A stretch of 64,000 bases of DNA from Pagrus major (taxonomy: Eukaryota > Chordata > Actinopteri > Spariformes > Sparidae): positions 25,497,665 to 25,561,664 of the forward strand of contig NC_133221.1 of NCBI RefSeq assembly GCF_040436345.1, given 5' to 3'. Shown here in pieces: positions 13,681 through 58,475 of this stretch. How positions within the stretch are numbered: the first letter of the stretch is position 1; each line of letters opens with the position of its first letter. The notes beneath the pieces are model-generated. The model made no database searches, was not told where the DNA came from, and worked only from the letters and a program-made list of their open reading frames with translations. A program made the translations under genes and the position numbers.

Positions 13681-14010
13681 TTATACATGGGTTGCATTCC
13701 TTAGATTAGGATCATAAGTAAACCACACATTTGTATAATCAGGATGGAAATCAACAATATGGTTTAAAAAAAGGACTTTTAGGTCTGAAAAGGATAAGGG
13801 GAGCTCTGTTAACAGTGTCCATAATTTAAGAGAAGAAATGTCTTCCTTTATCTGTTTAAAACACCTGAACAAACCCACTCTCAAACCAAAGGCATTTATA
13901 CCACTGGTGGGAACAAATGACAGACCCCTGGAGAAGAGTGATATCTGGTCATATAATAATTCCACAGAGGAAATGTTAATTAACATGTCTTTGTGAAGTT
14001 GTGTGTCCAA
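13681..14010 (-). pseudogene. Retroelement-like open frame fragment
   Basis: A 109-codon minus-strand frame contains the peptide LFSRGLSFVPTSG followed by FGLRVGLFRCFKQIK. This resembles the 'LLSKGLSFxPT' block that I associate with fish retroelement proteins, possibly Penelope-like elements. Upstream on the same strand (15180 to 14990) there is more possible element DNA, including CTGATGAAGGTCTGAAATG. There is no catalytic YxDD motif or endonuclease domain, so this is at most a dead 5' fragment. The class assignment is tentative. Confidence 0.35.
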
Positions 14011-15985: not shown

Positions 15986-15990
15986 CTCTC

Positions 15991-16060
<70 letters not shown>
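15986..16060 (+). repeat. (TC)n microsatellite
   Basis: About 75 bases are nearly pure TC dinucleotides, preceded by imperfect CT-rich sequence from about 15917. AC-rich imperfect repeats lie at 15500-15820. Confidence 0.95.
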
Positions 16061-16064
<4 letters not shown>

Positions 16065-16623
16065 ACATGGATGTACAGATTCCTTTCCCTCTGCCTCTCC
16101 ATGTGTTTCTCTCCGGAGCTTCATATCCATATGCATTTTTAATGTGTGTCTCCAGGTCTGTCTGTTGTTCTCACCATGTATTCACACCGCGAGGACAATA
16201 ACGAAGAAGTCTCCATCACTCATTCACGAAGGACCTACACGGACATGGTCGGCCCCTTGGGCAAAAATGAGAAACAATGTTTCTAATTTTTCAATGCTTA
16301 AATATTACCTGGTCCTTGGTTTGGCATGTGGGAATTTAATTAAACACAATATCCAACTGCATTGCATGACTAGAATTAGTGCCTCCTACAGTTAACGTGC
16401 AGTTTACATCTTTTTGTTCAGACTCATATGATGAGGTGAAGACTTTAAAGGAGTTTAATAAAAGGTAAATGTAGTCCGTAGTGAAATCGAAGGTATCACA
16501 TGTATGAGTCCAGTGAATAACTTCCAGTGAGAAAGTACAGAGTACAGAGGACTGATAGAGAGCTTTGTGATATAGTGCAATGACAAACACCTGAAGCTCA
16601 GTATCAGCAAAGCGTTGTGTCCC

Positions 16624-17010
16624 AAATTTGAAGAAATTCCTTCCATGTGTTCCTCAGGCAGTCACGAGAATGAAACAGACCTGAGCTCTCTGTGACCTTT
16701 GACCACCAAATTCGAATCAGCTCATCTTCAAGTCCAAGTGGATGTTTGTGCCAAGGTTGAAGAAATTACCTCCAGGTGTTCCTGATATATCGCATTCATG
16801 AGAATGGGACAGACCCCAGATCAATATGACCTTGACCTTTGACCTTTGGCCTCCAAATTCAAATCAGTTCATCTTTGTAAATGTTGGTGCCAAATTTGAA
16901 GAAATTTTCCTGAATGTGTTTCTGAGATATTGTGTCCACAAGAATGGGATGGACAGATGGATGACTCGAAAATATAATGCCACAGCTATCGCCGGTGCGG
17001 AGCCGTAAGG
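16624..17010 (+). repeat. Three-unit tandem repeat, period about 130-140 bp
   Basis: Units start at 16624 (AAATTTGAAGAAATT), 16753 (AAGGTTGAAGAAATT) and 16892 (AAATTTGAAGAAATT). Each continues with a version of TGTTCCTGATATATCGCATTCATGAGAATGGGACAGA (shown here only in outline), and the first two carry TGACCTTTGACC. The spacing of 129 and 139 bp, with divergence between units, shows an old tandem array of an interspersed family. TGACCTTTGACC (16693-16704 and 16833-16844) is a DR1-type nuclear-receptor motif. Confidence 0.75.
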
Positions 17011-23525: not shown

Positions 23526-26500
23526 ATGATGGCAGATGGAGTCCTCACTCGGGGCGCCTTTGGATCGATGACTGATGGAAACTTTACTTCCTTGTGCCCC
23601 AATGGGTCCCAGTGGGTTTGGGATGGGCTTGGAGAATGTGCCCAGGATGCCAGGGATATGGCCAGCATCTACCTAGGCCTCCTGTCCATCCTCTGCTTCA
23701 TGGTGTCTTCACTTCCGTAAGTCTTTTGTGTTGGTGTCTCTCAGAGGAAATGCTTTTTCATCTTATCACCATGTATAACTCTGTCTTCTTCTTTTTTTTC
23801 TGATTGCAGACAGTACTATAGCTCGTGCAGAACGGGGAACATGGACAGCGCCCTCTCAATTTGGTTCCTGCTGCTGTGGTTGGGAGGTGACACCTGTAAT
23901 CTGGTGGGCTCCTTCTTGGCAGATCAGCTTCCACTTCAGGTGACTTGTAGTGATATGAGGACTGCCTCAGTGTTGGGGTGTTTCCCATGAAAGAGTAGGG
24001 CTGCAACTAACAAAACTAAAGCTATAAATCATTTAGTAAATGTAAAAAAACACCAAGAAATGATCATTAGAAGTTATGAAAACCACAAATTTTGTATTTT
24101 CATTCAAAGAAAACATATGATTTTTATAATGTTATGACAAATAAACGAATTAGAATCAGATGAATGATTATTCAAATGTATATTGATCGTTGTTCTGTCA
24201 TTTGATGAATTAATGACTTGACTTATCATGCCAAGTTATGATACAAATGGCTTTTCATGTGAATTCCATCACAATGACTTAATTTGTATGAGGAAAATGT
24301 AAATGTTCATGACTTTTTAACACGTGATTTTTCTCCCTTTTATCCAGACATATACAGCAGTTTATTACGTTATAGCTGACCTGGTGATGCTGGCCATGTA
24401 CCTTTACTACAAGTTAAAGAACAGAATGGCTGAAAGTGAGTGTTTTCTTTGTTTGTTTTATTGCTCAATTTCCCAAATGCCAAATATGAACCAAGTTTTT
24501 GTTTTGTGCAGTGCCTTATTTGCATCTTAATTATTTTGCATCCTACTTTGCTTATTTGCATCCTCATTTAGAATCCCACACATAGGCCTTTGTGAACACA
24601 TGATATATAAAAGAAAAACTCCAAACATATATCCGTAACTGTAAACTGTAGCAATACTCTTTAATGATTTGGTTGCTTAATCCTAACTTCAGTTTTATCT
24701 GACATAGCTGCTTATAGAACAAGCTGATGAGCAATGAACCAACTCTAGTCCAGACAGAGGAAGAGGGTAATCCCTGTACCCTGTGATGATGTCATCATAT
24801 GCCTCATGTTGCTGTGCCATTTGTTCCTTTACGGTTGACCTTTGACACAGTAACCCTTGTCTGGAGGAATGTGCTGAGATGTCTTTCCCTGTACCGATGA
24901 TGAACCCAGGTGTTGTCTCTTCTACAGGCAGGACTGTTCTGAATGTTGTGGGTGTAGCCTGCGTCCTGAGCTTCACCACGAGCCTCATTAACCTCCCTGG
25001 GTTAGGCGCCCAACAGGAAATAATTCCTTCTGGGTTCAGAAGTCGCAGCTTGCTCTCAACCTCTGACACTAACCTTATCAGAGTGAGTCAGTTGTTTAAT
25101 TCGCAACCTGGGGTAAATTAACTATTTATGTTTGGCATTTCATCATGGTGTAACAATGTGTCTGCCTCTCTGTTGCTTCAGGCTTTTACCCCCAAAGAGA
25201 TTATTGGATTCTCCATTGGGTCAGTGTCATCAGTGCTTTATCTCTTCTCCAGACTTCCACAGATGTACACTAATGTGAGTATGACAAAGTGGGTTCTGCT
25301 ACAAATGTGAAGTATCTTTTGTAGTACTGCCTGCATACTATAGATGGTAAATATTAACTGATACTAATACTTATGCTAGAAGCAAATGGATGATAACGGT
25401 CATTAGAACAAGTATGGTAATAATAATATTACTACAGCATCACTATATAGTGCAAACCTTCGAATTATAATTGTTATAAAACTCATTACACTATTGTTGG
25501 TAAAACTAAATCCAACAAGTTCTAAATACAATAAAAATAAAATTCAGTTAGTTTGGTATCAAGATGAAGACCTATATCAGGTCTGGAATCCATGTGTACA
25601 CAGTGATTAACATGCATAACGTGTAACAAGTCAAGACTTTACATATTTAAAATGACAGGTATGATTAAAGATAAATCAGGTGAGAATGTGCCTTGTGTAA
25701 AATAATGATAGCAATTACAAGCTGTGTATGTTTAAATCCTCTCAAGATGAAAAATGTAAAACCCTGATTCAAAAAAAGTTGGGATGCCATGTGAAATGAA
25801 AATAAGGTCAGAATGCAATGATTTGCAAAAGTTTTTGACCTATATTCAACTGAATACAGTATGAAGACGGGATATTTAATGTTTAAACTGATAAACTCAT
25901 TTATTTGATGACTGAAACACACAAAGTGAAAGAACCACGATATCTCAACTTTTTTGAAAGGCCTTGTATTTCAAAGTGAAAGAAGCAAATTCATTGTAGC
26001 TGAAATCTGAGCAGCTGAAAATAAAAGTGAATAAAATGTACTGACATAATGGATGATTGCCTCTGCAGTCAAGAAAAGGTTTTTGTTTTGCTAACTTCCT
26101 CTCGTTCTCTCATTTCTCCTCTCAGTACAAGAGGAAGTCCACAGAAGGAGTTTCTTACTTCCTGTTCGCTCTGGTCATTCTGGGAAACACCATGTACGGC
26201 ATGAGCGTCCTACTGAAGAACCCTGATGAGGGCCAGGGCGAGAAAAGCTACATGATCCACCACTTGCCCTGGCTCATTGGCAGCCTTGGCACCCTGGCGT
26301 TGGATCTCCTTGTATCCTTTAAAGAAAAGAAAAAATGCCCACTGCGGCCGGGCCTCTGGATTCTCCTTAATCCCACGTACATGCTACATTTTAGGCAGCG
26401 TTGAGCTTGTGGAGAGGACACTTCATCAAATTGGTTTAGGTCTCATGACTGTGTGTGTGGGAACACGATATGTAGTATCAAAGCTCCAAACACTCGTAGA

Positions 26501-38400: not shown

Positions 38401-41400
38401 GCTATGTAGTGGACTATTTCCTGAACGGGTGCAGTGACTTCCTGGCGTTGCCACTGGTTCAGTCAATAAATGAGCATCAGAGATGCTGGGTTGTATTTTT
38501 ATATTTTAATCTTTGGACAGGCCAAGCTGTTTTTACTTCTTTCAATCTTTATGCTAAGCTACGCTAAGTGTCTGCTGGGTCTGCCTTCATATTTAGCTCA
38601 TAGACGCAAGAGCAGTGTTGATCTTCTCGTCTAACTCTCAGACTGGCCTCAGTATCAGCAGATAATTGATATTAAAGGATCGTTATATAAAAACACATTT
38701 TGTGACCAGGATATCCCTATATATGACTGAAAGAGAAATTATTACGGTAGCTTATAACCATAACTTCAAATAGGGGCTCTTGCTCCAGGCCCTGTCCAAT
38801 AATCCATCCATTGTCACCAATGGCTGAGGCCAAACTATGGACTAAAATTAAGGATATCACAGCCTTTACTTTAATTTGGACTACACTTTATCTTTAATTT
38901 GCCTCCTGTAATTTCCTCAACTTTATGTCAGTGCAATACCAAATCATTAATGTGCCCCTTTAAAGGTGCATTACGTAAGGATTGGTCAACAAACAAACAG
39001 GGGCAGCATATCACCAGAGTAACTGCTAACTGCTGCTAACTGTGTTTTTACATCCATGACTGTAGCTATTGTTAGCTTGTTACCTCAGTTAGACCTGCAG
39101 CCACTGGGGGAGTGTTGATGTTAACACTGTTAGCACCACTGGGATAAAGACGTTTTCAGGCCCAGGGCTAGTTGGTTAGCATGTTAACATCAGTAGATAT
39201 CTCTTCAACACAAGACAGACAACATCGCAGAGCTACAATGATGGTTGGTTTGTTTCCCTGACAAAGTTAAAAGGGAGACAACAATACATGTTTTTTTTCG
39301 ACATAATCAGACTGATATTACTGTCAGTCCTCATCTTCATGCAACATGTTTACCCTTTAAATGTCCATCTCCAGCAGTCGTGAGACTCGGGACAGTTGGG
39401 TGGGCTCTCCGTTTAATCAGTGCAGAACAGATCCCACAGCAGTCCCAGTCATACCGGACCAGCTGTACTTTCAGAGGCTGCCAGTGGTCACACATGTTTT
39501 CTCAGAGGAGACAGGCTTTACGAAAACACAAGCTGTTGACCCACGCTCAAAGACGTCTCGGTCCGTCACAACACTGAACGACCATTACAGGCCGAACCAA
39601 GCATCCAGAAACGAGGATCAAAAAATCCTAAATGGCACTTGGAGCTCTCAGCTGCATCCTGTTTCAGCAGTCTGAGCGAGTTCACAAGGTCTCACTCTCA
39701 GCTTTTTATTGTATCCCTGAAGAGCCATTAAAGCAGTGAAATCACACGAGTCACGTAAGACCACATTCCTGTGACCTTCTTTGACTTTGTAATGGCGTAA
39801 TAGTGTTTCCTTGAAACACTCATTCATGTTTCTGGTCTTGGTAATGCAGTTGCTCTGTTGTTCCAGATGTGAAACGGCTTACTGGGGCATGTTTACACCT
39901 TAATCAGGTGTCTGTACATTCTTTGTTTTTACAGAAAATGACTGAGATGGTGAGAAATGAAGTCACAACTGTACACAGATGGACTTGGATACTGTTGTCA
40001 TGTAAACAGGGAAATGAAGAACCAGGTTTCTCATGTTTCATGTAAACATATCCTTAGTGAGATCAAACCCAGGATAAGACTGAAAACCGGTAAAACTAGT
40101 ACACATGTAAACATACTTGTTCTTAAAGGAAAATCTGGCATTACTGTATTTATTTTTTTTTATTGTCAACAAACCAAATGAAAAGACCAATGCCAACGGG
40201 TAGTTCATCTGTCTCTCAGTAGTTTCTGACCTCCCTTCCCTCACTGTGGCTCTCGATGGGTCCTACTGTTCGCAGAAATCTGAACATTTAAATTTACGTA
40301 GCAATTACGTAGAATTGGATCAAAACGTACTACATTGCCCATATTCATCATAATGAAGGAACATGTCACCCAGGTTTTGGACATCAATGGAGCTCGATGG
40401 CACAGAGGAATAAGATATACCAGGTTTAAGTTTCACAGACAATACTTGGAATGTAACTGAGTACATTTACATTTACTCATTAATGCTACTTAAAGGTGCA
40501 ATATGTAAGAATTTTAGTTGAAAACAGCCAAAAAAACCCAAAAAACTAAAATTATCAACAGAATGCAAAGAAATAAGTTTGGATGTTATGCCATCTATGT
40601 TTTGATAATAATGGATGTTAGCATGCTAAGCAGCTAGCCCCGGCACATCACAGTCCAAAGCTACAGAACTGGTGGTGTAAACACTAACATTCCCCTGATG
40701 CTCCGAGCTCCCAGTCCAGACCACTAGCTACATGGCTAACTGAGCTCTCTAGCTCATTCTGTCTCTGTATATACAGTACATACATACCTGTAAATGTATG
40801 TATAATTTACTTTGAATTGTACTTCGAATTGTTGCCAGAAAATTACATTTGATACTTAAGTATGTTTTTAAGACTTTTTTGAGCAATATTTTAACAAGAT
40901 ATAAATACTTTTACTCAAGTATTACTTTTGGGTACTTATTACAACACTGAAGGCTGCACTAGAGAGGATACAACATTTTCCAGGAAGTAACAGTTTTCTA
41001 AGAAGTTACAAGTTCATCTAATTTCCCTCAAACTCTTTCTTTTATTCTTTTTCAAAATGGCATCAGATCACAAATCTGAACACAAAATTGCAAATGTTGT
41101 ATTTGGAGTAATCAATTACTAAAACTTTTTGCCCTTTCGCTTCCATCGTCCTCATTTTCAGACCTGCTGGCTGACCCTCTGGGCTACCCCCTGCAGGACC
41201 CTGACCTCCAGCTGCTCCCTTACAGCCAACAACAGTACAGCCATGCCAACCTGCCATTCTCCCTCTACGGCTCTCCACCCTCCTCCACCTCCTCTCCCTC
41301 CTCCTCCTCTTCTTCCTCCTCGCAGCCCTGCCATCCTGCCTACCACTACAGCCCTCATTGCCTGGAGGCCCCGTGTGATCCCAACCCCGAGCCCCACTGT

Positions 41401-44400
41401 GGGGGCCTGGTCCAGGGCCTCGGGGCCGTAGGGTTGCCTCTGGGGCGGAGGACACGGGTGGGCATGGGAGGGAAGATCAGAGGTCAGGACGAGCTGTGTG
41501 TGGTGTGTGGTGATAAAGCGTCAGGGTATCACTACAACGCTCTCACCTGTGAGGGATGCAAAGGTATTTCTCACTTTTGTCTGCCAACTTTTTATTCTTT
41601 GTATATTTGTGTTCTAAAATGAATGTTCTCACCCTCACCTGGTCCTTCTTTACCTGTAGGTTTCTTCAGGCGTAGTGTGACTAAAAAGGCGGTGTATCAC
41701 TGTAAGAGTGGTGGTGGCTGTGAGATGGACATGTACATGAGGAGGAAGTGCCAAGACTGCCGGCTGAGGAAGTGCCGGGCTGTGGGAATGCTGGCTGAGT
41801 GTGAGCGACCTCTACTGTACTTTAACTAATGAAATGTTAGGCCCATATGCGTTTGACTGATTCGTCTGGTTTGATGTTGGTCTGAAATTGTTGTTTTTTT
41901 AACCTCAGGCCTTCTGACGGAGGTGCAGTGCCAGTCCAAACGACTCAGGAAAGGAGGTAAAGGCAGAGGACAGGAGGAAGAGGAGAGCACAGACAGCAGG
42001 AAGGTCAGCTCTAGCAGCAGGCTACCTGGACAGGTACCACAAACTAAAGCAGGGCTGACTCAGTGTGTTATTGACGGGGTGGCTGCCTGAGTGGATGCAA
42101 GTTTTTTGCTCATGCTGGTGGCAATTTGACTGCTGAAAGTTAAGTTCTGGCATTGTCCCCAGTCATTTAGACAGGAGCCTGGTTTTATTAGCATGAAATA
42201 ACTGCATGGGGGCGTTGCCAAGATGGCTGCCGAGTGGCAAGACTTGCCTAGAACAATGCCTTACTAAGATTACCCATTTAGTTCAAAGCACTGCTGTGCT
42301 GAAGTAGCTACAGCTTCACGGAGCCACTCACTCTTTCGGTTGGTCAGTTAATCATGCGATTGGCTGTCAGGAGTGAGATTTGATATAATGCTCTTTCAGG
42401 GTGCATGGAGTATTATTTCGCCATACTGATATATTCTGAGATATTGTACTGTTTGTGGATGATAATTATGTGGAAAAATAAAACAGCTTAACTGGGATGT
42501 TTGTTTTAGGCTTATCTAGCTGATAAAATATCTGACAAATCCAATATTTCCATGAATCAGTCCTGCTCATTGATTTGCAGCATTGCCCTCACTGGCCTTA
42601 TCCACTGAAGAGTTACTATAGAGATAGATACCACATTATTTATGGTATGGAAAAATCATTGTGTATTGCTACTGTTGGATGATAAGTTTGATTACTTTTA
42701 TGGCTTGCTGGGTGTTTTTATGATATGTTTGGGTAGTTTGTGTCTTTTGTTTCTTTTTGTTAAATGGTTTGGTTGATGAACGGTTCAGAACACAGATGAT
42801 TTGGTTGGTGAGAAGGTTGTTTGGTGGTTTGAATAAATGATTAGTTTTGTATCGGGTTGGATTATTAAGCAAAACTGCAAAAGACAAGCGTAAACTCTCC
42901 TCCCCCAGCTGTTCAAATTCACATGATAACATTTGTCTTTCATCTTAATGCACTTTCTATCTTATAGTTGTAACAGGCTGAAGTGATATCATGATTTAAA
43001 CTTGTGTTAATTTCCCCCTGCGCCAGGCTTTGTCTGCCACTTTAACCCGAGAACAGAAGTACATCGTGGACAGGATGGTGGAGGCCCATCGCCTGTACAG
43101 AGCACAGGACAGCAGCCCTTGCAGGGTAGGTAACGGTATGGAGACACTAGCTGTGCTTCCAAAAACACATTCACATGTTTTATTATGTTTCCCTCATGGT
43201 TTCTTGTCCGTGTCTGCTCAGTTGTTTGATTGGCCGTGTGCAGAAGAAGGGGAGGTGTTGTCTGATGTTGTGTCACCTCACCTGCAAAGACTGCTACACT
43301 TTGCCAGGACAGTGCCAGGTAAGATGGAGGGGGATATACAGCGTTCAGGATCTATAACCTGCTTCCTGCTGTGTTCCCTTAAGAGAGGAATATATAGTCT
43401 AATTGAGGAAAAATATTCTCAAAGTGCGAGGAAGTTTTTAAGGAGATCAAAGAGAGATGAGGAGCTTTCTGTTGCTATGTGGCACTCCCCTGCAGAAGCC
43501 CATGTAAGCCAGGCCCTGCAGGGTGTTTTTAGCAATGCTCTAAGAATGTTGGTCTGTTTTTGTTTACTTCCTTGGTCCAGATTGAAATATCTCAATTATG
43601 GCCATGAAATTTGGTACAAAAATGTATTTCTGGGCACTAAGAAGAGAGAAAAAAACTGTCTGACTCAGAGATATTTCGAATAAACATAATCTGTATATAA
43701 AAATGAATATTCCTTGTACCCCTCACAGGATTTGACCTCCTGGATTATTCAGATCAGAGCTCTCTTTTGTCCGTCTCCTCACTGGAGGTCATGTTCCTGC
43801 TCTCCGCTCAGCACTTCTGCCACAACCCAACAAGCCCCAGTCCAGGTGAACAACCTGCACAGTTTTATGATTCATGCTTGCATTTGAATTTGATCTTTAG
43901 TTAAAAAATACATTTCTTTATCTCTGTTATCAGTCATGCAGCTTTTCAGCATGTCAACACACAACTGGCTGAGAAATGTAGAGTCAAAGGAAAACATCCA
44001 CAGCAGGACGTTGGTGAACTCAGGTGAAACCACACACACACAGGTTCATTAAGAAAATATCTTACATCTTACAACCCGCAAAATATTCAAGTTACATCAC
44101 ATAAAAATGAGCAATTTCCTGTTTGCTGCTGAGAACAGGAGGCAGTGAGGATCTCTTCGGGCCGGTGCTCAACTTCTTCCATAGCATGGCGACGCTGCGG
44201 GTGACAGAGGCTGAATACACCCTGCTCACTGCTACAGCTCTGCTCTGCTCAGGTCAGACTGTGCTCTGTTGTTTGTGGATGTTTGGTCAGAAATAATCCT
44301 ATCAGCTGTCAAGTCAAGACATGCAAATGCTCTGTTCAATTGTAAATAATCTTTATAAACAGGAAGTAAGATAGTAAAATGATTGATTTACTCAGTCTGA

Positions 44401-44746
44401 CACAAAAGGGTAAAACAACTGTGGGAATTTTCCATGCAGTAGCTGTTTGACAACTTGAATGCATCACCCCGTCTTTGGATATAAACAAAAAAATACATCT
44501 GTTATATGTTTTAACATTGTTAACCTGTGTTCCTCTTCCCCTCCTGTAGACCGTGCGTCCCTGCAGGCGGCCAGCTGTGTTGAGAAGATGCAGGAACTGA
44601 TCCTGGACCTGCTGTCCAGGGCGTGTGGGGCCCAGGCCGGAGCTGCGCGAGGAGGACCGCAACGGTTCGGTCGTCTGCTGGGCCGACTGACGGAGCTACG
44701 AACCCTTCGTCACAACTACCTCCTCCTGACAAGACAGCAGCCTTGA
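35430..44746 (+). CDS. nr1h5: FXR-family nuclear receptor, AF-2-less (FXR-beta type)
   Basis: Ligand-type nuclear receptor of the NR1H group. Coding exons: 35430-35529, 41162-41563, 41660-41800, 41909-42033, 43027-43125, 43222-43318, 43729-43845, 43934-44023, 44139-44252, 44550-44746; phases agree throughout, giving 493 aa. Residues about 146-211 are the DNA-binding domain ([34 protein letters not shown]) with all eight zinc cysteines and P-box CEGCKG, close to FXR. The ligand-binding domain starts near 257 and keeps [19 protein letters not shown] and [11 protein letters not shown], but ends 12 residues later, before helix 12. Divergence from FXR-alpha in the ligand domain favours nr1h5 over nr1h4. 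The first exon could also start at the ATG at 35454, and upstream exons may exist. An alternative donor at 42003 keeps frame. Confidence 0.85.
36060..36930 (+). repeat. Interspersed repeat in receptor intron 1
   Basis: Degenerate blocks rich in AAAGTAC, AAAAGTACAATATT and TGTACTTAGTTACATTCC occur here twice (ending near 36590 and 36930). Related pieces lie at 735-775 and flanking 40490. It is a multicopy fish repeat of unnamed class. Confidence 0.6.
38150..38640 (+). mobile_element. Foldback repeat in receptor intron 1
   Basis: CTGAGAGTTAGATGAGAAGATC near the left end is mirrored by GATCTTCTCGTCTAACTCTCAG at the right, and GCTTAGCATAAAGACTGG by CAATCTTTATGCTAAGC. The arms thus form a foldback of about 490 bp. 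A copy lies at 26714-27043. Confidence 0.7.
38960..39238 (+). mobile_element. GGTGCAATATG-family MITE, right end lost
   Basis: It begins TTAAAGGTGCATTACGTAAG and includes GGGGCAGCATATCACCAGAG and GTTGGTTAGCATGTTAACATC. No right terminal inverted repeat is seen, so the end is approximate. Confidence 0.65.
40440..40960 (+). repeat. GTACTT-type repeat interrupted by a MITE
   Basis: The outer parts (ACTGAGTACATTTAC at about 40458; GATACTTAAGTATG and TACTTTTACTCAAGTATTACTT at 40850-40930) belong to the 36 kb family. Between them, from 40490 to about 40770, sits a GGTGCAATATG-family MITE (TTAAAGGTGCAATATGTAAG) without a clear right end. This is a nested insertion. Confidence 0.6.
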
Positions 44747-45116
44747 CTCTGACGGAGAGGACGTACCAGAAATCTGAAATATGACCACTATCATCTCGGA
44801 GTTTTAAGGACTAGATGGTCCTATATGAGCTGAGAAACTGTAGAGAAACATTTTGGAAATGCAAAGGTTTTCACCTGATACTGATCAGACTATGATGGAT
44901 TCTTTGGCTCGCTGTTGTTGATTTTTTTTCTCAGCTGACTTCAGTTTATTCAGTCCTGCAGTCATTATTGAGTTTCAGCTTCTAATAGGACTGAAGCATG
45001 TTTGTGGACTGCTGTAGTTTGTTTGGACAAAATATATTTTATAGGTCTTTTTATAACTGTTGTATACAGCTAACATGTAAACTTACAGTACTTTTTACTA
45101 TGCCGAGTATTGTTAC

Positions 45117-45122
45117 AATAAA
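45117..45122 (+). terminator. Polyadenylation signal of the receptor gene
   Basis: AATAAA 371 bases after the TGA (44744-44746); the intervening sequence is AT-rich 3' UTR. Confidence 0.7.
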
Positions 45123-45278
45123 ACAAAACTGCAGACTGCATGTCTGCTGGACATCACTTTCACCACGCCTGTTAATGAGTGATTATCATTAAATAATATT
45201 AAAAGTGATCTCACCTTTGGTTTTGACAAGAAAAAACACAAAACTGCAGTTAAGTATCCCAAAAGTTTTAATAGAGCA

Positions 45279-45284
45279 TTTATT
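45279..45284 (-). terminator. Candidate distal polyadenylation signal of brpf3
   Basis: TTTATT on the plus strand (AATAAA on the minus strand). Several other minus-strand signals lie between here and the brpf3 stop (for example near 45570), so which is used is uncertain. If this one is used, the 3' ends of brpf3 and the receptor are about 150 bases apart. Confidence 0.35.
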
Positions 45285-46416
45285 TCCCAAAACAAGGAAA
45301 TACTGGTTCAGACAAAATATTTGGTGAGCAGGTAAAATATGCAGGTAGTACAAGCTTATAAAGGTGTATTTTTCCATTTGATAAAATGGGGCTCTGGACA
45401 ATAAATAGAATCTTCTGGGGGTCGACAGTGAATAATGGCGGTTGGTCTTGAATAAATTCATCAACATCAAACCAAACTTGAACTAATCTGTTAAAAATGT
45501 TGGCTGCATGATTTTAAAACCTCACTCCATTTGTTTTAAATAAGATTTAATTCTCAACTTTAACCAATATAGCTTTATTTCTATAATTCTGTCTTCCATA
45601 AATAAATTATTTCTCTCTGTATCAAAAAGAGAATTCAAATATAAAGAACAATGGCTCATTGTGTTGTATGCTCTGAATGTACACACACGTACAGCACAAT
45701 GAAATTACATCAAAGACGAGCTACGTAGCAAGTCAGGAATTATTTCATCTCCACAAATATACACAGCCTCGCTTTGCCCCTCGTGGGTTGATTGAAATAC
45801 GCATTTTAAAAACAGCAACATTAAATTAAATCGGGTTTGATAATACACATACATATGTACACAAAGTGTGCCTTTATAATATACAAGTGTCTTTGTAAAA
45901 GATTAAAATGTAAAAAGCTATTGTATAAAAGATGGCAGTGATCCATTCATACGTCTTCTGCGTCTCATATAAATATGTCAAATCTCTTTTCTGACAATTT
46001 GATTCCTTGGCAGTAGCATTATACAAAATAGAGGGGAATTCTCTTACATTTGATCCAGACACACACAGCTTCAACACATCCACGTGGAGTAAGCAGATAC
46101 CTCGATACAGCCCTGAACAGGGAATCAACGCTTACTGACTGCAGCAACATGGGACCTAAAGGGAACTTCATTCACATCTGGAGGTCCGCGTCCATGACAA
46201 TGACACGAAGGCAAACGCCACTGCTCTGTGCGTCAGACACTAGTGGTTTGGTAACATACTTTAGTCCATGACTGTGTGCTGCTACAGCAACCTCTCCAGA
46301 CCACAGTGTGAATACAGATTCGAATGGCAGCAGGACTCAGCCCACCTGCTGCTTTAAGACCAAAGAGAAATGCATAGTGGCTGGCTGTGGGTGCACGCAG
46401 GGCTCACTGTCGCCCT
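45285..46416 (-). other. brpf3 3' UTR region
   Basis: Non-coding AT-rich sequence downstream of the brpf3 stop (46417-46419). No exon on either strand was recognised. Confidence 0.55.
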
Positions 46417-46793
46417 CTACAGGTAGTTGGAAGCCACAAAGCCTTGACTGTGGCTGACTCGGCTCTGGTGGATCATGGCGCGGTCGTACGCCACCTGGAC
46501 AGACTTGCGGATGCTAGACTTGCGACCCTCCATTATGCGCAGCTTGTCCCCCGTGTCATCTACACCCAAGGGTGTCACCTTATCACGTGGGAGCCACTGC
46601 CTACAACAACAAAGATACAGATTTAGACTGTTAGAGGCTTTGACAATGGTGATGACCACTTTCACTGCTTGTTGCCTGATTTGGACCTAAAAAACATACA
46701 CACATACAAACATACACAGTATATATTTGTGTTTATACATAAAATTACATATAAAACTATCTTCATTTTTTGTATAAATGTATAAACACACAT

Positions 46794-46867
<74 letters not shown>

Positions 46868-49800
46868 GCATTTTTTGTTTGTTCAAATTTATAGGCAAAA
46901 ATAACTTTCAAGTAGTTATGATCCTCTCTGAATCAACAAATCACCCAGCTGCTCCACGTTAGTCTGTAGAATTACATTTGAGCATGTCTGTTTGACCCTC
47001 ACCATGTCCGCTTGTTGTCAAAGAAGAGCACCAGGTAGAGCCTCTCATTGGTCTCCTCCTGCCTCTGCTCCCCCAGACTGAGGACGTCTTTGGGTGGGAC
47101 AGGGATGGGCACCCCATTGTGCAGCAGGCCCTCTTCGGGCATTTCTGGGTCGATGATCTGGAATGAGCGATCAGTCAGTCTAACAGGGTATTCAAGTCTG
47201 TTTCTAGCACTCGAACAACTATTCTATGGTCCAGCGATCTCTTGAATAATGCTTTTTTCCCTTCCTAGATTTGGTCAATATCGTCAAAATCACTTATTTA
47301 AGTGCTTCTCCACCTGTCGACAGCTCATACTAGATTATGCTAATTAGAATAAGGCATTACCAGAGCAGGATAGGAGGGATATCCCCGACACTTGGCCCAC
47401 ACCAGTTCTAGAGGTTCCAGCTCTGTCTCATCCTCAGACACTTGGCTGACATGGCCTGCAAAACAGCAGCAGATGTCATCACCATTTAATGAATAAGAAG
47501 GAAATGACCAGGACATCCATACATACATATTCCCACTAAGATTGGAGAATTATACTTTGTGACACAAAATTCCATTGGAAACATTTCTGAGCATGAGAGA
47601 GGGAAAAGAGGATGACACACAGAGGAAAAAATATAATTTAAATTCAGATGACCATAACACAAGAAAGGAAAAAAAAACAAAACAAAACATACCAGTGTAA
47701 TCTGAGTCTCCATTGACTATCTCCAGGAAGGGAACTTTGGAAAGAGCTGGTTTCCCAAGGCTTCGTTTGGGTGGTGAGCTGCTGTAAGACAGTACATTGT
47801 ATTGTCAATGTGTTGTCAATCATTACAATAACCAAACAGCCACTGACAACAGATACACTATGTCTTACATTTCTTTGTGGAGGACTGGACAAGGGCTGTA
47901 CTCGGAGTCGGACCCGCCGTCTTTGTGCTTGATGAAGCCATTGGTCAGTCCTGAAAGCAAATGAGAGAAATCTCAGAGGAGCTGCTGCAGACAAAAACAA
48001 GACCAGGAGCAAAACTGGACAAAAAGAAAGGATATCTAGGCACACATATCTCTAGTCTCAATGAAAACAACGCAACAGTACGGTGGTGAGAGGACAGCAC
48101 ACATTAATCAGTGATAAGAGTGGGTGCAGGGGTGGAATTGGGCAATATTTGTTTTGTTGATCTGAGGTAGCAGAAAACAAGTTCCTATGCTAGCTTGTTT
48201 CCTCAGAAGGAGGGCTCAGAATATCTGACTGCTACACAAAATTAAAGCTGCAATATGTAATAATTTTAGTTTAAAACATTCAGAAAATCCACTTAAATTA
48301 TACACAGAATGTGAAGAAATAACAGTTTTGACATTACGACTAAGATGTCTATGTATTGCGTTGCAGAGACATCTACTGAAGTTAGCATGCTAACCAGCTA
48401 GCCCTGGCCCTGAAAACCTCTTTCTCCAAGTGGTGCAAAGCTCCTGTGCAAATGCCATAAATGCCAGCACAACCCTCCCCCAGTAGTCCAGCTAGCTGCA
48501 CGATTAACTGAACTAACAAGCTAACTGTAGCTACAGTCATGGATGTATTAACAGAATACAGTTAGCAGCAGTTAGCAGTTACTCCGACGATGAGGTGGCG
48601 ATTTTTTTTACTTAGTGCACCTTTATGTCTGACATTGTAAAATAAGTAACTAGCATTAGCTAGCTAACCTGAAGTGATAAAGAAGATAATAAAAATGGAA
48701 AAAGATTGCTCTGAACAAGTGTGTTCTGAAGACAAGAATGGAGATAAATTTAACTGTAACATCTATAACTGCACTCTAACATGTCATACATCCCTTTGCA
48801 TTTTGTTGCTGTCTGCCATTGTCATCATTGTCAGTCAGCAAACTTTAATGAGCATCATATGTGATCACATCCTAGTGAATGTCTTCAGAGAGAGAGAGAA
48901 ATGTGTAAGATGTCAGTAACTGAGTAAAGCTTCTCACCACTTTCCAGTGTATGATTTGGTGTCTTCTCCAGCTCATTATCTGACATGTCTCGAATGGGGT
49001 TGCATTTTTCATTGAGTGGGGGGGGTCCTGGGCTTTTCTGGGGGGTCTTAGATGGAGTGGAGAAGGGTGTAGAGGATGGGGTACTGGCTGCGGAGTTGGG
49101 TGCTGTTGGGGTGCTGCTTGTACTGTCATCCTGCAGCCCCTTTCCATTCAGCAGCGGGCCGTCTCTCTCTCTTAACAGCTTAGTTACGTTTTTTGCCTTC
49201 TTGAACAACACCGAGGTTCGTCGTCCGACTCCCCCGGTGGTTGGTCGTGGTGGGGCGCTGAGCTCTGGCAGGCCGTTGGCCACCACCTGTCCTTCACTGT
49301 GCAAAATGGGAGGCGGTGACACCGGCCGCTCCTGTGCTTTAGTGCAATTAATGTTCCCTGTGGCGCTGTCTGAGAGGTCATCGTCGAGCTTTAGGCGTTT
49401 GCAGGGCCAGCTGGGGGACTTGGGCTCCCCTGTGATTGGCCGGAGGGTGGGTGGCTCCAGAGGTGCGTCCCCTTGTCGTGGAGGAGGAGCTGGCCCTGTA
49501 GGTTCCAGTGTTGGGGGCGATGTGGATTTAAGGTCTTCTGGAAGATGAGAGGAGAAAAATTAATTCAATTTCACTCTGCGTTTCTTTGCAATGAATGCCC
49601 ATTTAGTATGTAGTGTGATGTGGCGGTGTAGTATTCACACTGGAAAATGGTGTCACTTCATCATGATTTCATTCAGTCTAACCACAGCCCAGAGGGAGTT
49701 GAGGTATTCTGTAGATATGGAGGACCTTATCAAGACGAGTGAGTATATAACTTTGCTCTCACACCTGTACACCAGCAACATGGTAACATGGCAGTTATGA

Positions 49801-52800
49801 CTCAACTGACACAAATCACAGTGTTCTGCTGCTCTCCTCTACGGTACCAAGAGACTTTTTGACTGGACTAGCCTGTAGTCAGAAGTGGGATGATATGGCA
49901 TGACTGTACGTGGCCAATGGAGAGTGGTGAGTCCATGAGAGTGATGTATAAAAGAGGTGCAGACATAGAGTGCACTGGGAGAGAGGAGTTGTGAGGCAGC
50001 CATGGCTAACGAGACTCTGTGGGCCCCTACTTACTAGACTGGAGACAGTGGGGTGGTTGGGGTTGGTGCGTGGGGGGGACCCTGGCTCAATTACCTGAGG
50101 ACAATGTTCCGTTAGCTCATGTTCACAACTGGTCTCATTGAATAAAAGAGGCTTTTAAAGGTTCATGCATTGGCAATTTCATACTGTTGAAACATCACTG
50201 CTTTTCATCACCCACCTTTGTCCAAAGACAAAAGCCCGTTGTCTGCCTTGGCGTCTTTGTCGTCATCTTCCTCGTCATCTTCATCCTCGTCCTCATCATC
50301 TTCTTTCAGATGTCCATTGTGAAGGCTGTTGCGGGGGTGCTGGCCCTGCCTGTAGCGGATGTTGTTGATCTCGCGACGAAGCAGGCGGATGCGTCGAGTT
50401 CGGGCGCCGCTGCATCGCATGGAGGTGACAAAGTCGAGCTTTTCTAACAGCTCCTTCAGCTGTTCGTCCACCGTCATATGAAGCCGGTTGTCTGGATCCA
50501 GCACACTGTCAACTGGACACAACAGGAAGGAGTCAGGAGAAGAGTGAAGATAGCATGCATGTTCCACGAAGTGACGACAAGTATTTTAATTGAGGCTGAT
50601 TCGCTAACCAATGACACATTCGCAAAAGGTGAGTCACATCAGCACTCAACAATACCAAACTTACAAGAAGAAATCAGATTCCCAACACTGACTTGACAAC
50701 TGTACCAGTATTAATATTATTAATTCTATATATATTTATATTATAAAATTACTGGATATGGACAACACTGCTGTGTGCAGTTCGCCATAGCTAGGTAAAC
50801 CGTTTACAGACACTGTATAGTGTCATTACTTAACACAGTTACAACAGAAACAACTTCATTGACACAAAAACAGACCCTGTGAGAAATCTGTCCAAAATAA
50901 CCCAGTTATTGCCCAACAGATGAAAATGTCAGACTGTACTCTAACTCGACTACACAAATGCACAACAGCCTGAAAACAACACATGTACAAAAATAAGACA
51001 TGCATCAGTGCCTTATATTGGCGGCAATGGTGCTAACATGAATGTTACCCACAGGAACAGAAATGTGACTCATTTTAACTCCTCTCATTCAAAACTGAAT
51101 AGAGAACATGTGCCCATTGAGTATTTTATATACACCGATTCCAGGACTGAGGTAAACAATGCTCACTCAGCAGTATTTCATTGAGAAATGCATCACCTAT
51201 TAACAAACAGCCATTCGACACATTTTTGGAGCAGGGGCATTTGGTTCTCAGCTAGAAATAAAAATAAAAAGTGGAAATAGTATTATTTCTATTTAGGTAC
51301 TGTAAGCAAACTCACACTTTAATTCATGTACAGTTTATAATAGGGTCAGTCCATGCCAATTCACCTAGGGCCTCCCAGTTCACGTCATGGATGCTGACAA
51401 CATCTATTAAATTCATGGGATGGTAAAATCCTATAGCTGTACTCCAAATACTTTTTAAGTTATGAATTTTTGAAGCTCGGAGAGTTTGAAATTGTGATAT
51501 AATATGTGTGTTGAGTTTAATTACTAAGATTAATTTTTTTTTTTAATATCTACAGATGAAATAAAACCACCGAATGTGACATTACAGTCAGTGAAAAGTG
51601 TGAAAAAAATCACAAAACAAAACAAGGAATCACAAAAATGCTGAAATATAGTTTAGAGGACCAGACTTCAAAAATCCATAATTAAAAAGTATTTGGAGTA
51701 CAGCTATAGGATTTTGCAAGGTCTCATGAATCAAATGGAAGTTTCAACATGAACTTTTTTCGAGAAAATCCATGACATGAACTGGGAAAAGTTCTGGGTG
51801 ATTTTGGGTGAGTTGGCGTGGAATGACCCAATAGCACATCTGAATCTGAACTAACTTGTAATCCCATCGATTCAACCTTGAGCTGCATTGTATTGATGTA
51901 AATGTTTCTTAATTGCACTTGATCATAGACCATGTATCCCTATAAAGTATTTAATCATACTAGAGGGATACATACTGACCCCTTTCCAAAGTACAACAGA
52001 TGTGTGTTTTCTCCTTTCCTGCGGAGTACCACCACTGTGACTTACCATCCTCCCAGGTGCAGCTGTAGAAGTCTCGTTTCTGTGGTGACTGTGGGAGGAG
52101 CATGCCAGTGTCCAGGTCCAGGCCGGTGTTGGTGGCTTGTCGTTGGGCATGGCGCAGTACGGCTCCTCCTAGGTCTCGAAGACGCAGTGCTGCCCGGTGG
52201 AAGACTGTGTCCTTGGCATTGTAGAGGAGGCAGTTAGACACCATCAGGTTGAAGTCGGCCTCCAGGTCAGCCACTGAGCGGTAGGCGTGACCCTCCAGCT
52301 TAGTGAGCATAGTGGAAAAGTCCATGGGCTGGCTGATGAACTCCAGGTAATCTGGGACCTGAGGACGAGACAGAATGATAGAAGTTAATGAGGAGAATGG
52401 ACAATGTAGGCAACTAAAATCCACCTCAGCAGAAGCGTAAAGAAGTGGACAGGTGAAAAAAGTTAGTCAAGGTTAATTGCTGAGCAGTTTTAATGACTTT
52501 ATTTCTAACGTTCAAGAGAGCTGCGAGGTGGGAGGGGTGCACTGATTCCAGAAATATTTACCATTTGTTTTTCCCATTGACAAAAATACTTTTACAGCTC
52601 CCAGTTAAATGAGCATTAGAGAATATTAAGAACTGGGTTATTGGATAATAAATTCAAAAAGGACAAGTTTGAGTGCATAAACACTTCAGGGGAGAGTTAA
52701 GCTCCAAAGGTGCATTTCAGCAACATAAATAAATACATACATTCTGCCACATGCCCTATTAACAGTGGGAAGGATCTAAAGATTACACTGTTGATCAAAC

Positions 52801-55800
52801 TGATTTCCAATTTGCAGCTCAAATCCGTTCACATTTAATTTAAGGATTCAGCATCAATGAAGCCTGTTGTATCTTTAGTTAATTCATGCTTTTGACTGCC
52901 TTTTTCTCCATACCAACAGAGGCCAAGGACAAAGTTAAATCATTTGAATTGGTGTTAAGAACATAAACTAAGGCTGCACGATATTGGAAAAAACTGACAT
53001 TGCGATTTATTTATTTTTTGCGATATATATTGCGATATTGAAAAATAGAAGAATTTTCACCAGATGACTTGAATAGCTCTATTTGGAAAGAATTTGGTTG
53101 ATTCACCATGATACCACTGTATTCATATAATACCCTTCTATTAATCCAAGCTAAGGTCAATGATCTAATGTCATACTCTAAAATGGGGGGGGGGGGGGTT
53201 CATCTGTAATTGCAGCCGTTTTTTGAATTTATTTTGAAATACGTGCTTTTATTTTTAAATGAGACAAACTGGAAGTGGTATCTGTTAGCTCCGTAAGCTT
53301 CACGCAGAGACTGAAGAGCACCTGTAGTGGTGATGTTACCTTGTTAGTTCGGTTTTCTTTTTTATCACTCCATGCTTCTTGGTGTTTGCTACAGCTGTGT
53401 GCACGTGGCTTTATGAGAAGTTTATGTTGAAGAAACATATGTTTTGACTGTGAAGATTGCCTCTGGGGGATGACTCTGCCGTTGGTTGAGAAGCAGGCTA
53501 AAGTGGTCAGTATTACCCTATGTATTCTTTATCGGTATTAGTTACAGTGTTAAGCAATGCTATTTCTGTAATGATTGCAATAGCTGATGTTGTCTTTTAT
53601 TTTGTTTAGCTGAACTTTAGTTCTACGGTGTCAATAAACATCTGTGAAGGAAGCTGGAGTCTAGCATTCAATCAATGGGCGGCATATCATCCGTTCATCT
53701 GATCAAAATAGAGCATTAGGGATGGAAGTCTCTTTAGCCAGCCTGTTGTGCAGTGCATTATAGGTGGAATAAGATGATGCACAGAAGAGAAAAAAATGCA
53801 ACAGTGACACTTTTGACACTGTAGTGGACTTAGCATTTAAGCTAGAGATTTCAATGAATCTGTTGATACCAAATACACCATGCTGGCTTACTGGGAAAGG
53901 GGTGAAACGTCGCTCCAAAGTTGAACTGTTTTACCGCGAGTGAACTTTGAAGGGGGGACTTTTAATATCGCATGTCCTGCGATGTGACTATCGCGCACGC
54001 GCACATTGTGATGGCGATGTTCAAACGATATATCGTGCAGTCCTAACATAAACCTACAGGGTCTTTACATTATCTGGCAGAGCCCTGTGTTTCTTTGTTC
54101 AGTAACATTGGCCATGTCATTTAAAGAATCCTTGAAATGGGATAAAGAATGGGGAGAAACACTCCTCCTCTCTATTTAAATGCACCAGGTCTCCGTGTTG
54201 TAACAGTGAAATCACCTCCTTAATGTTGACTGGTTGTGCAAAAATCTGGGCTGTGTCCTTTTCCTGTAGCTGCTCCAGAGTGGAGCGGAGCAGCACCAAC
54301 ATCGGAGTCAACTGCATCTCCAGAGCGGCCTGGTGAACTTTGACCTGTAGTTAACAGAGGATATGCATGTGATGTCAGTATACATGGAAACTGCAACCAT
54401 AAAGAATTCAGACACAAGTTTTTACAGACTGTGAAAGGCTAAAAAGATGAGAAGCAATGTGAAGCCCATGCATGTGACAGGCTGTGTTTTGTAAACCAAC
54501 AAAAGACAATGGTTTGCTATATGAAATGTGATAACATCAAAATATTCCTAAAAAGATTTCCACTGGCTGTTCACTACATCATATGTGTAATTGTCAATTG
54601 TGATGGCTTTTGTTTTATTCTCAGTATAGAAGCTCTAGCCATTCATAGCAGCCACCTGCTGGTTTGTTGTGGCACTCAGTTGGTTTAAGGGGACAGTACC
54701 ACATGAAAAAGACAAGTCAATTTATGACAGGCAAAGAAAAGGGAGCTTTTAGCCATTGTTTGGATTGAACCGCTTAGAGAGATGACAGGAGATGGGGGGG
54801 AGGGGGGGAGAGGGAGAGCGAGAGAAAGAGAGGATGACAGAAAAGGTCCACAGGTTGGAATAGAACCCAGGCTGCTGCTGCTGAGGACTCAGCCTCCAAA
54901 CATGGGCCGCACGCTCTACGAGGGCGCCCAACACTTAAAGTTTTAAATGCTTGTTTATTTATGCACTTTAGATCTTCAACATTTCTGAGACTAATCCATG
55001 TATATTACCTGTTCTCGTTTGAGTTTCTCCCTCTTGCGGATGAGCTCCACCAACAGCCTGGCTTTTTCAAGGTCATGCCGCAGCTTCTGCCAGTATCTCA
55101 GTGCTTCTCTTGCAGCAGAAACCTTCTCATCCACCTCAGGCTACAAATTTACAACAAATGTTCTTATGTTCATTGAATAAACATTGTAGAAGACATGTAT
55201 CTCAATGTAATTATCTGAGTACAAATATATTCACAGAGCATCAAAAGTTTAGTTATGTGTCCTGCCCTGACCTGTTCAGTAGTCCTTTGGGATTGGATGT
55301 TACAGTGCAAACGCCGGACCAGCGGCACACCGTTCCTCGACTGACGCTTCAATAACCAGTAATTGTGCAGCCTCTGCATGAACTGGTTTTTCCTCTGGAA
55401 AATGATTCCTTTGCAGATGATATTCAGCCTGTACAACAAAAAAAGAATTGCAAGTTGGTACAATCAACATGAATGACATCAGCTCAGGACCTCTGCCAGA
55501 GAACAGTTTCTCATAAATTTACACTCATGCTTATTTAAAGTAGCTATCAAATCCAAAAATCTCCACCAAAACAGTGCTTTTAAAATGGATTTGCTTGATG
55601 TTTTGTGCTTCTCTAGGTGTGTTATAAATTTGCTGAAAAACATCCTGGCCAAAATAAATAAATAAAAATAGTTTTTTATTTTTAATAATTGTTGAACAAC
55701 AACAAAAGCACAGCATTTCAGTTAATTCAAAATAAAGGAAAATCTAACCTGCTTGTGGGGATCTGAGGCACTATCACTTGTGCTGGTGACTCTGGGCTCT

Positions 55801-57268
55801 TCTTCCCTTTCTTTTTATCTGTCTTGGCATCATCTTCAGACTTTCTGCCTTTTTTCGGTGTTACAGGACCCTCTGTGTAAGCACTCCGTCCTCTACTCGC
55901 CCTCCCTCTGCTACCCACCACCCTTCCTTCACTCTCCTCATCTGAGCCGGTCTCTTGTCCTGGTGGCGAATGGGCCTCACAAAACGCTGTTTTCTTAACA
56001 GAGAACGTGGTCCCGTTCACGTTCGTTTCTCGCACAGGATCGATCTTCATAAACAAGCCAGCACGCTGGGCACACGTGACATGAAACGCGGTGTAACAGT
56101 TGGCCTTGTGGCACTGAATTGATGCACCACGGCCTTTTTGCTTACACAGGTAGCAGGTCAGTTTCCAGCGTGCTGGGGGAATGTTATTGACCCCTTCCAC
56201 TGGTTCTAGAAACACTGTGTTGGCAAAGCAGACTTCAGGGATCCAGATGGCACAGACCACATGTGCCCAGCGTCCATCACTTGTCTGCTTGAAGGCGCCG
56301 CCCCGGTTCGGACATAGAACACAGTCAACAGGTTTCTGAGGGGACTGGAGGCAGCAGCGGCACAGCCACTGGCCCTCGGGGATGTAGGGCACTCCGTAAC
56401 ACTCCTGGTGCACAGCCAGGTTGCAGGAGTCGCAGAAGAGGATGACGTTGCTGTTGAGGCACTCATCATCCAGGCACACGCAGCAGAAGGCATCGTCGTC
56501 AATAGTGCTCTGAGAGGGCGCCCGACTGCGGGCTTCCTGGTACGCCTCCTCCTCTAGCCGGTCCACCAGCAGCTCAAAGGTGTCTGGTGAGACAGCTGAG
56601 TATCCCTCTGATGTTCGGCCAGCATTTACCATCTCAAGCCAGGCAGTGTCCTCTTCGTCCATGTCATATTCTGCCTCAGCTTCCTGCTCCTCAGCTGAGC
56701 GTTCAATGTAACGGTAATATGCCGTAGGCAGAGGAGGTGCCTCGACTGGTGTAAAGGTTTCTAGAACGTGAAACTTAGGTTCAGGGAGGGTCATGTGGTG
56801 ATTGTGTGATGCATTCACCTTTTCAGGTGTTTGCGGATGTGAATTGGGGCAGTGGTTCTTGGAAGGTGGTGGCGATTTGACTGGAGGACATTTTGAGTCT
56901 TTCCTGCGACCTCTAGGTGTAACAGGTTTGCGGACTGTTTGGGCACTGCTGGTAGGAGATGATGACTGCTCACTGTTCTCCTTGTTGCTGTTACACTCAC
57001 TAATGTCCTGAGCCATCATCTCGTCATCGGTGATGACCTCCAAGGGCTCCAGAATAGAGATGCGGTGAAGCCTGCCATCCAGTTCCACCTCCACCACCTT
57101 CTGGGCCTGTGCGTATGTCAGGGTTTCTCTGCTTGGAGAGGCTTTGAGGCTGTAAGGGGATGGGGATCGTTGGCGGGCACCCCCACGCCCACCAACTGTC
57201 CCATTGGACTTCTTGACATCAGCTCCACCTCCTGCAGCCACCTGGCCTTTTCGACGTGGCTTCCTCAT
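46417..57268 (-). CDS. brpf3: Bromodomain and PHD finger-containing protein 3
   Basis: Scaffold of MYST acetyltransferase complexes (HBO1/KAT7, also MOZ/MORF) acting on histone H3 (family knowledge). Coding exons in transcript order: 57268-55749, 55428-55272, 55140-55009, 54344-54216, 52358-52046, 50512-50216, 49537-48938, 47950-47869, 47781-47693, 47455-47361, 47157-47003, 46600-46417. All have GT/AG borders and consistent phase, giving 1250 aa (human BRPF3 1205). The N-terminus MRKPRRK plus [19 protein letters not shown], and [15 protein letters not shown], distinguish it from BRPF1 and BRD1. First PHD finger about residues 261-308 ([22 protein letters not shown]), zinc knuckle and second PHD about 312-435, bromodomain about 610-720 ([28 protein letters not shown]), acidic linker, PWWP about 1115-1210 ([15 protein letters not shown]), C-terminus [12 protein letters not shown]...ASNYL. 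Confidence 0.97.
46797..46865 (+). repeat. (AC)n microsatellite in last brpf3 intron
   Basis: About 70 bases of AC repeats, inside the intron 46601-47002. Confidence 0.97.
48242..48625 (-). mobile_element. GGTGCAATATG-family MITE in brpf3 intron
   Basis: TTAAAGCTGCAATATGTAAT at the left and CTTAGTGCACCTTTA at the right are the inverted termini. The body has GTTAGCATGCTAACCAGCTA and GTAGCTACAGTCATGGATG, shared in inverted sense with the 38960 copy. About 384 bp, non-coding. Confidence 0.72.
51344..51829 (+). mobile_element. Foldback DNA element in brpf3 intron
   Basis: GGTCAGTCCATGCCAA at the left pairs with TTGGCGTGGAATGACCC at the right. Inside, ATCCTATAGCTGTACTCCAA is an inverted copy of TTGGAGTACAGCTATAGGAT. 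The arms of well over 100 bp enclose AT-rich sequence. A 5-bp AATAG flanks both sides (51339-51343 overlapping the first base, and 51830-51834). No coding content. Confidence 0.75.
52969..54045 (+). mobile_element. Non-autonomous hAT-like element in brpf3 bromodomain intron
   Basis: It starts TAAGGCTGCACGATAT and ends ATATCGTGCAGTCCTA, inverted termini with few mismatches, flanked by a perfect 8-bp duplication ACATAAAC (52961-52968 and 54046-54053). The ends hold repeated GCGATAT-type motifs. It is 1077 bp, with no transposase frame, and contains a run of 14 G (53185-53198). It makes up over half of the intron between the two exons encoding the bromodomain. Confidence 0.9.
54780..54835 (+). 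repeat. Purine-rich, G-run tract in brpf3 intron
   Basis: GATGGGGGGGAGGGGGGGAG followed by GAGA-rich sequence; purine on the plus strand, hence polypyrimidine on the transcribed-sense strand of brpf3. Confidence 0.8.
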
Positions 57269-58475
57269 AGGCCACCAATCACACGTTCCCTCCTGTGGGT
57301 TTAAAAAACATAATATTATTATACTACAACTGTGCTATCAGACTTTAATAAATATAGTATATACAATATATTCTTGTACTTTATACAAAAACATTGTGGA
57401 TAGTATTAAAAATAAGCATTTGATGGTGCTACAGTAGAATATGAAAATGTTTTGCCATTTTTCCACCTTTGATGGATAGCACTCTATTATGTTACATTAA
57501 AAAAAAGACAATGCCCAAGCTAAAATGTTTTGCTGTGTTATCTTAAGGAATTGTCCAGTTATTAACTTATTCATATCCAGCCAGATTGACTATCACAGCT
57601 TAATTTCCCAGTGAGATCATAATATAATATTTACAGGACAAAACAAAATCTCATACCATTGCTGTAACAATGGCATGGAAATAAGACTTGAAGATGCTTA
57701 ACGTAATTTGACATTCTTGACATATTGAGTCATTCAAAAAATCTCTGTCGTGAGTTGTATTTTACTGCAGTGTTTAGGCAGGACTATAGTCAGCATCACC
57801 TGTGGTGTAAAACATTCCTTCACACACATCAACTCGCGTAACTCTTACTCACTCAATCAGTACAGGGAAAGACAAATGTACTGACAGCTGTCAATCTGAA
57901 GGTTAGATTTTATTGTCAAAATACACACGGCCAGTAAAGAAAAATAATCTGTAATTAGATTCTTCTCGACTTTATCTCATAAAATGTTGGCAACTACTAT
58001 CAGGGCAGCCCACAACAGAAGGGCTCGTCCAATCAGCTTTCAGGGTGGTTTGACTGATCCACCCCAGAGCCAATCAGCTTTAAGAGTACCGCGGTCTCAA
58101 CTGCTCGGTGTCCTTATTTCAGGAGTAAAATGTCAGCCATATTTACAGTTTTCAAATTATGTTAAATGCTCTCCTACGGCTTAATGTTAGAAGCAGGTTT
58201 GTAATATCGAAGCAGTGCTTCATATGTTCAAGTTGGGATGAGAAAGGCTCTCTGACATAAAGGTGCGGAGACAAGTAAGGCAGTTGGAGATACCAGCTAA
58301 CAGCTAGCCAACCTGCTAACTTTAACAAATGGGCAGTACCAACGTTAGCAGGCTTGATATTTTTTAACGTTGACAAGGCGCTAAACAAGTTAAACTGTTC
58401 CTAGCTAAAATGGAGTTAAAAGTTATGAGCCACTTTATAATAAAGGAACAGTAGGTAGCAAACTTCCACCTTACC
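57269..58475 (-). other. brpf3 5' UTR, first intron and non-coding first exon donor
   Basis: The first coding exon opens at 57292 after the acceptor ACCCACAG. On the minus strand a strong donor TAATAG/gtaagg lies at 58475/58474, giving a non-coding exon 1 that begins upstream (higher coordinate) and an intron of about 1.2 kb. Two CCAATCAGCTTT boxes (58029-58040 and 58070-58081) lie in this intron. Confidence 0.6.

Follow-up and report, generated by a model that had tools for sequence, protein, structure and literature searches.

An FXR-type nuclear receptor gene of Pagrus major whose ligand-binding domain ends before helix 12

The REV-ERBs are described, in the part of PMC7840129 cited here, as unique among nuclear receptors in being without helix 12, and part of PMC8080777 gives the agonist contacts of FXR as Arg331, His447, Trp454 and Trp469. 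The FXR-beta gene, nr1h5, is reported together with nr1h4 among the highly expressed liver factors of Atlantic salmon (PMC6146974), and liver nr1h5 of zebrafish is tracked by polymerase chain reaction upon fasting and refeeding in PMC6889435. Here we describe an FXR-type receptor gene in a stretch of 64,000 nucleotides of Pagrus major DNA (the window; C7:25497665-25561664, contig NC_133221.1), taken from an assembly of 786 Mb in 25 contigs. The protein encoded by this gene is likely NR1H5 (FXR-beta), as judged from its sequence, and it ends before helix 12, the activation function 2 (AF-2) helix.

Absence of helix 12 and of ligand contacts

The last exon of the receptor gene (plus strand, 44550..44746) extends through helix 10/11 and ends, without helix 12, in a TGA stop codon (44744..44746). 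The number of residues that follow the helix 10/11 motif is 12 in the window protein (after LRTL) and 29 in human FXR (after LRTF, PDB 1osh_A), so that at least the last 17 residues of FXR, including the AF-2 helix, are absent from the window protein. This result confirms the proposal of an earlier note on this DNA that the ligand domain stops before helix 12. Helix 12 with the charge-clamp glutamate, which characterizes a classical ligand-activated FXR, is thus not found in the protein. The FXR-alpha gene of the same genome (C8, L024) keeps helix 12 before its stop codon, and an LXR-like gene on C4 keeps an intact LPPLLSEIWDV; the latter locus was considered as a possible third FXR and rejected as being LXR-like. 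The retention of AF-2 in these two receptors indicates that the assembly and the scan described below are able to reveal this helix if it is present. To survey C-termini, 20 of the 82 ligand-binding domain matches in the genome were picked by hand, and 17 of them (not L011, L014 and L019) matched the C-terminus pattern. An AF-2-like end, as judged by eye, is present in 15 of these 17. L025, which we take to be RAR-like, shows an apparent read-through into an intron at its C-terminus, and L026 (C17:27520500-27522200), presumably REV-ERB-like, ends soon after helix 11, at LRSLNNMHSEELLSFKVHP, 15 residues after the motif. L026 is a ready natural control.

The window protein was aligned with human FXR and with FXR-alpha of the same genome, with region limits chosen by us and an arbitrary alignment of the tail after LRTL. 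Relative to human FXR, Lys303 is replaced by Arg in the helix 3 exon (43222..43318), Lys321 by Ser and Arg331 by Leu in the helix 4/5 exon (43729..43845), and His447 by Tyr, while Trp454 is missing and the Glu467-Trp469 segment is absent. The four agonist contacts are accordingly represented by leucine, tyrosine, no tryptophan and an absent position. Lys303 and Lys321 of FXR have charge-clamp roles. These changes of ligand-contact and groove residues outside helix 12 are an addition to what the earlier note had proposed. The whole ligand-binding domain is identical to FXR-alpha of the same genome at 82 of 205 positions, and its helix 3-5 region at 22 of 55. Helix 10/11 is identical at 16 of 24 positions, compared with 17 of 24 between human FXR and this FXR-alpha, and the DNA-binding domain with its extension at 76 of 88, with the zinc fingers and P-box intact. 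The Pfam scores of the two domains are 97.4 bits for zf-C4 (PF00105; cut-off 21.1) and 54.2 bits for the ligand-binding domain (PF00104, Hormone_recep; cut-off 23.5). The sequence supports the view of the earlier note that the receptor is of the FXR type, keeps its DNA-binding domain intact and cannot form the classical AF-2 surface.

In a tree of five rows, in which LXR of the same genome is partly X, the window receptor groups with human FXR-alpha and FXR-alpha of the same genome, apart from LXR, with support of 100/100; these rows gave no branching order within the FXR group. We take OLFML3 to be the expected neighbour of NR1H5, loosely in line with PMC6404605, and none of the 46 OLF-domain matches in the genome lies near C7:25.5 Mb. 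Among the matches listed, the titles and abstract beginnings of open-licence papers contain no description of AF-2 loss in NR1H5, and no relatives were found in viral contigs.

Search for a hidden helix 12 and the second assembled copy

To examine whether an AF-2 helix is encoded elsewhere, the plus strand was scanned with an FXR-alpha-type helix query and with an LPPLLSEIWD query, and the scores were compared with those of shuffled sequences. The positive controls score 61 at FXR-alpha and 56 at LXR of the same genome. With the helix query, the best score is 10 in 44747-45250 (reached by 170 of 200 shuffles), 14 in the intron at 44253-44549 (48 of 200), and 23 both in 44747-47000 (27 of 200) and in 44747-50000 (20 of 100). 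With the LPPLLSEIWD query, nothing rarer than 52 of 200 shuffles is found in the scanned regions. The result for 44747-45250 is in line with the claim of the earlier note that no AF-2-like peptide is present in any frame of the 3' untranslated region. The best candidate for a further exon, YTASLCPSWVD at 45760, is rejected: 27 of 200 shuffles score at least as high, the poly-A signal at 45117 precedes it, and LRTL is followed by no usable donor. A single GT occurs between LRTL and the stop codon, at 44709; it scores -9.7 with a donor weight matrix entered by hand, compared with -0.1 to 7.1 for the eight real donors of the gene. The best donor score among the earlier GTs of the last exon is -0.8, and their use would delete helix 10/11. 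Alignment of the DNA with the tail of FXR-alpha of the same genome, as a test for an AF-2 relic, is at chance (270, 542 and 916 of 1000 shuffles). Thus, neither a splice to a further AF-2 exon nor an erroneous TGA, either of which the earlier note had allowed to overturn its proposal, is borne out: no usable donor and no convincing downstream candidate is present, and the stop codon is identical in two assembled copies.

The second copy is located 92.8 kb upstream, at C7:25446344-25449607, with the same last exon and the same stop codon, and this stop is therefore not an error of a single copy. Positions 21942-59939 of the window are matched upstream with two short breaks, in pieces that are 98.6-99.8% identical in the fetched stretches, and positions 9960-17743, to the left of a gap, match C7:25600500-25608649 at ~98.5-98.7% up to the final base in front of that gap. 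The gap itself is a 100-N scaffold gap at 17744-17843 of the window, inside the repeat C7:25427100-25609500. The repeat has an offset of ~92.5-92.8 kb and an identity of ~99% (~46 kb compared). Such a layout is expected where two haplotype contigs that overlap have been placed one after the other, and the two copies are most likely two haplotypes that form a false duplication, a true tandem duplication being possible. If the duplication is false, the genes of the repeated stretch, including that of the receptor, are counted twice. None of the 1383 exonic sites, a count that takes in the stop codon and one acceptor base, differs between the copies, compared with 16 of the 2202 intronic sites (Fisher p 0.0005). 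When neutral change of 204 codons of the FXR-alpha ligand-binding domain was simulated to 40% identity, with indels ignored, only 2 of 500 runs remained free of stop codons. These two results argue for constraint, and the gene looks intact and constrained.

Possible mode of action and alternatives

Loss of AF-2 and of the ligand contacts, together with retention of the DNA-binding parts, points to a bile-acid-insensitive competitor of FXR-alpha. We assign a probability of about one half to the reading that this FXR-type receptor without AF-2 occupies FXR sites with RXR and competes with FXR-alpha in a ligand-blind manner. With its zinc fingers and P-box kept, the protein would bind to FXR response elements as an RXR heterodimer, and it would neither respond to bile acids nor recruit LxxLL coactivators through its own ligand-binding domain. 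Such ligand-blind occupancy would compete with FXR-alpha, and any activation of the pair would be left to RXR. Thus, the protein can probably sit on DNA with RXR without activating by the usual route. A feature of the sequence that would fit an RXR partner is helix 10/11, with the identity to FXR-alpha given above. An interaction between nr1h5 and RXR-alpha in mammalian cells is stated in part of PMC7063573, where zebrafish nr1h5 and rxraa are also placed in an epicardial cell group.

Several points weigh against this reading. Competition with FXR-alpha is what we infer from the anatomy of the protein alone. According to PMC3042382, steroids of the lanosterol type activate mammalian FXR-beta, and loss of activation would therefore be a change within the family. 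The branch of the ligand-binding domain is very long (1.45, compared with 0.23 and 0.098), which fits relaxed constraint. The absence of exonic differences between the copies has a p value of 0.011 when every remaining aligned site of the 10 kb stretch serves as the reference, and the comparison comes from a single haplotype pair. No convincing match to an ATG or first coding exon is found in 20000-41160 with three human peptides. Finally, a fixed-register test that allows one frameshift gives a score of 6 with the best shift at +1, and 73 of 2000 shuffles (nominally 3.7%) score at least as high. The earlier claim that a single frameshift does not explain the ending holds in that the aligned stretch contains stops and no AF-2 core, but it is qualified by this score, which is nominally above chance. 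The score is a weak counterpoint, not an explanation. The -1 frame gives E, I and a stop exactly where human FXR has E, I and W, but the best-scoring shift is +1, and a frameshifted AF-2 is rejected, because no AF-2 core is present in either frame.

Active repression of the REV-ERB type, in which an open helix 3-5 groove is predicted to bind NCoR/SMRT constitutively, is possible but unlikely, and it is a weaker reading than that of a ligand-blind competitor. The REV-ERBs are described as lacking helix 12 and as repressing constitutively (PMC7840129, PMC3315023), and FXR is described as able to hold a corepressor peptide with helix 12 disordered in its ivermectin complex (PMC8080777). The REV-ERB-like L026 likewise ends just past helix 11, and a positive charge is retained at the helix 3 position, where Lys is replaced by Arg. 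However, the helix 4 lysine is now Ser, the helix 3-5 region is identical to FXR-alpha at just 22 of 55 positions, and the tail after LRTL is short, with 12 residues compared with 15 in L026. In the heme-free structure of REV-ERB, a strand that extends from helix 11 is described as pairing with NCoR ID1 (PMC7840129).

It is improbable that the gene is decaying, having lost AF-2 and its pocket under relaxed constraint and being without function. An FXR-beta frameshift variant is reported to segregate in dogs (PMC6404605), part of PMC3042382 gives FXR-beta as not found in Tetraodon, and the long branch of the ligand-binding domain is in line with decay. However, the frame is open over the nine located exons, which have canonical splice sites, no exonic difference is found among 1383 sites, stop-free neutral runs are rare (2 of 500), and the DNA-binding domain is conserved (76 of 88). 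Also quite improbable is an RXR-driven activator, in which AF-2 of RXR or the N-terminal region of the window protein would drive a putative permissive heterodimer, so that ligand control changes and the sign of regulation is kept; the conserved helix 10/11 motif and DNA-binding domain and the N-terminal region of ~110 residues before this domain are consistent with it. An assembly error or unseen splice variant that conceals an intact AF-2 is highly improbable, since, apart from the one-frameshift score of 6, the stop is identical in two copies that differ elsewhere, the best AF-2-like peptide in the scanned parts of 44253-50000 is still equalled or surpassed in 27 of 200 shuffles, the DNA relic test is at chance, and no usable donor follows LRTL.

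A broader proposal is that a group of fishes has converted FXR-beta into a dedicated antagonist of FXR-alpha without helix 12, retained by selection as a brake on bile-salt signalling in the liver, so that the REV-ERB design would have arisen twice independently. This proposal is tentative, and the odds are somewhat against it. If it is true, a second, unrelated receptor would have dropped helix 12 and kept its DNA-binding domain, illustrating how an activator is converted to a brake, and toxicological assays of fish FXR that presume a ligand-activated FXR-beta would misread such species.

Gene model and comparison with known systems

The receptor gene is located on the plus strand as nine exons within 41162-44746; their acceptors are AG, their eight donors are GT, and together they form a single open frame of ~460 codons without an internal stop. 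The exon at 41162..41563 (acceptor ttttcag, donor gtattt) encodes the N-terminal region, of which ~110 residues before the DNA-binding domain lie within this located exon, and the first zinc finger. The second finger is encoded at 41660..41800, the zf-C4 match spanning both fingers, and the C-terminal extension of the DNA-binding domain and the hinge at 41909..42033. The ligand-binding domain starts in the exon at 43027..43125 and continues through the helix 3 and helix 4/5 exons. They are followed by an extra exon (43934..44023), which contains a 21-residue insertion placed by alignment before helix 7 and has no counterpart in FXR-alpha of the same genome, and by the exon at 44139..44252. The acceptor of the last exon is cccctcctgtag, directly followed by ACCGTG, and its translation begins with DRASLQ. 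The likely 3' untranslated region is 44747..45122, with AATAAA at 45117. A large neighbour gene, which presumably encodes a BRPF-type protein as judged from its open frames, lies tail to tail with the receptor gene on the minus strand at ~45200-57400, and a plus-strand open frame at ~26057-26400 resembles what we take to be a PQ-loop transporter, SLC66A1-like.

FXR-alpha (NR1H4; L024, L030 and human PDB 1osh) is like the window receptor in its DNA-binding domain (76 of 88), its helix 10/11 motif and the start of its last exon, but it keeps helix 12, Lys303, Lys321, Arg331, His447, Trp454 and Trp469 and has neither the 21-residue insertion nor the extra exon. SHP and DAX1 (NR0B) and TR-alpha2 antagonize ligand-activated receptors; they differ from the window receptor in that NR0B receptors are without a DNA-binding domain and TR-alpha2 is a splice variant and not a separate gene. 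We take K421 and K439 of REV-ERB-beta to be equivalent to positions 303 and 321 of human FXR. The AF-2 surface of REV-ERB-beta is described as containing K421 (helix 3) and K439 (PMC7840129), whereas the window receptor has Arg and Ser at these positions; of the REV-ERB features, it therefore shares the absence of helix 12 and not the AF-2-surface lysines. REV-ERB (NR1D) is described as a DNA-binding receptor with a ligand-binding domain without helix 12 (PMC7840129), as is the window receptor, but it belongs to a different subfamily, binds heme and recruits NCoR. FXR-beta (NR1H5) is, like the window receptor, a second FXR next to FXR-alpha. Xenopus FOR, which we infer to be NR1H5, is described as having a 33-residue insertion in helix 7 that recalls the 21-residue insertion of the window receptor, and mammalian FXR-beta differs from the window receptor in being described as ligand-activated (PMC3042382 for both).
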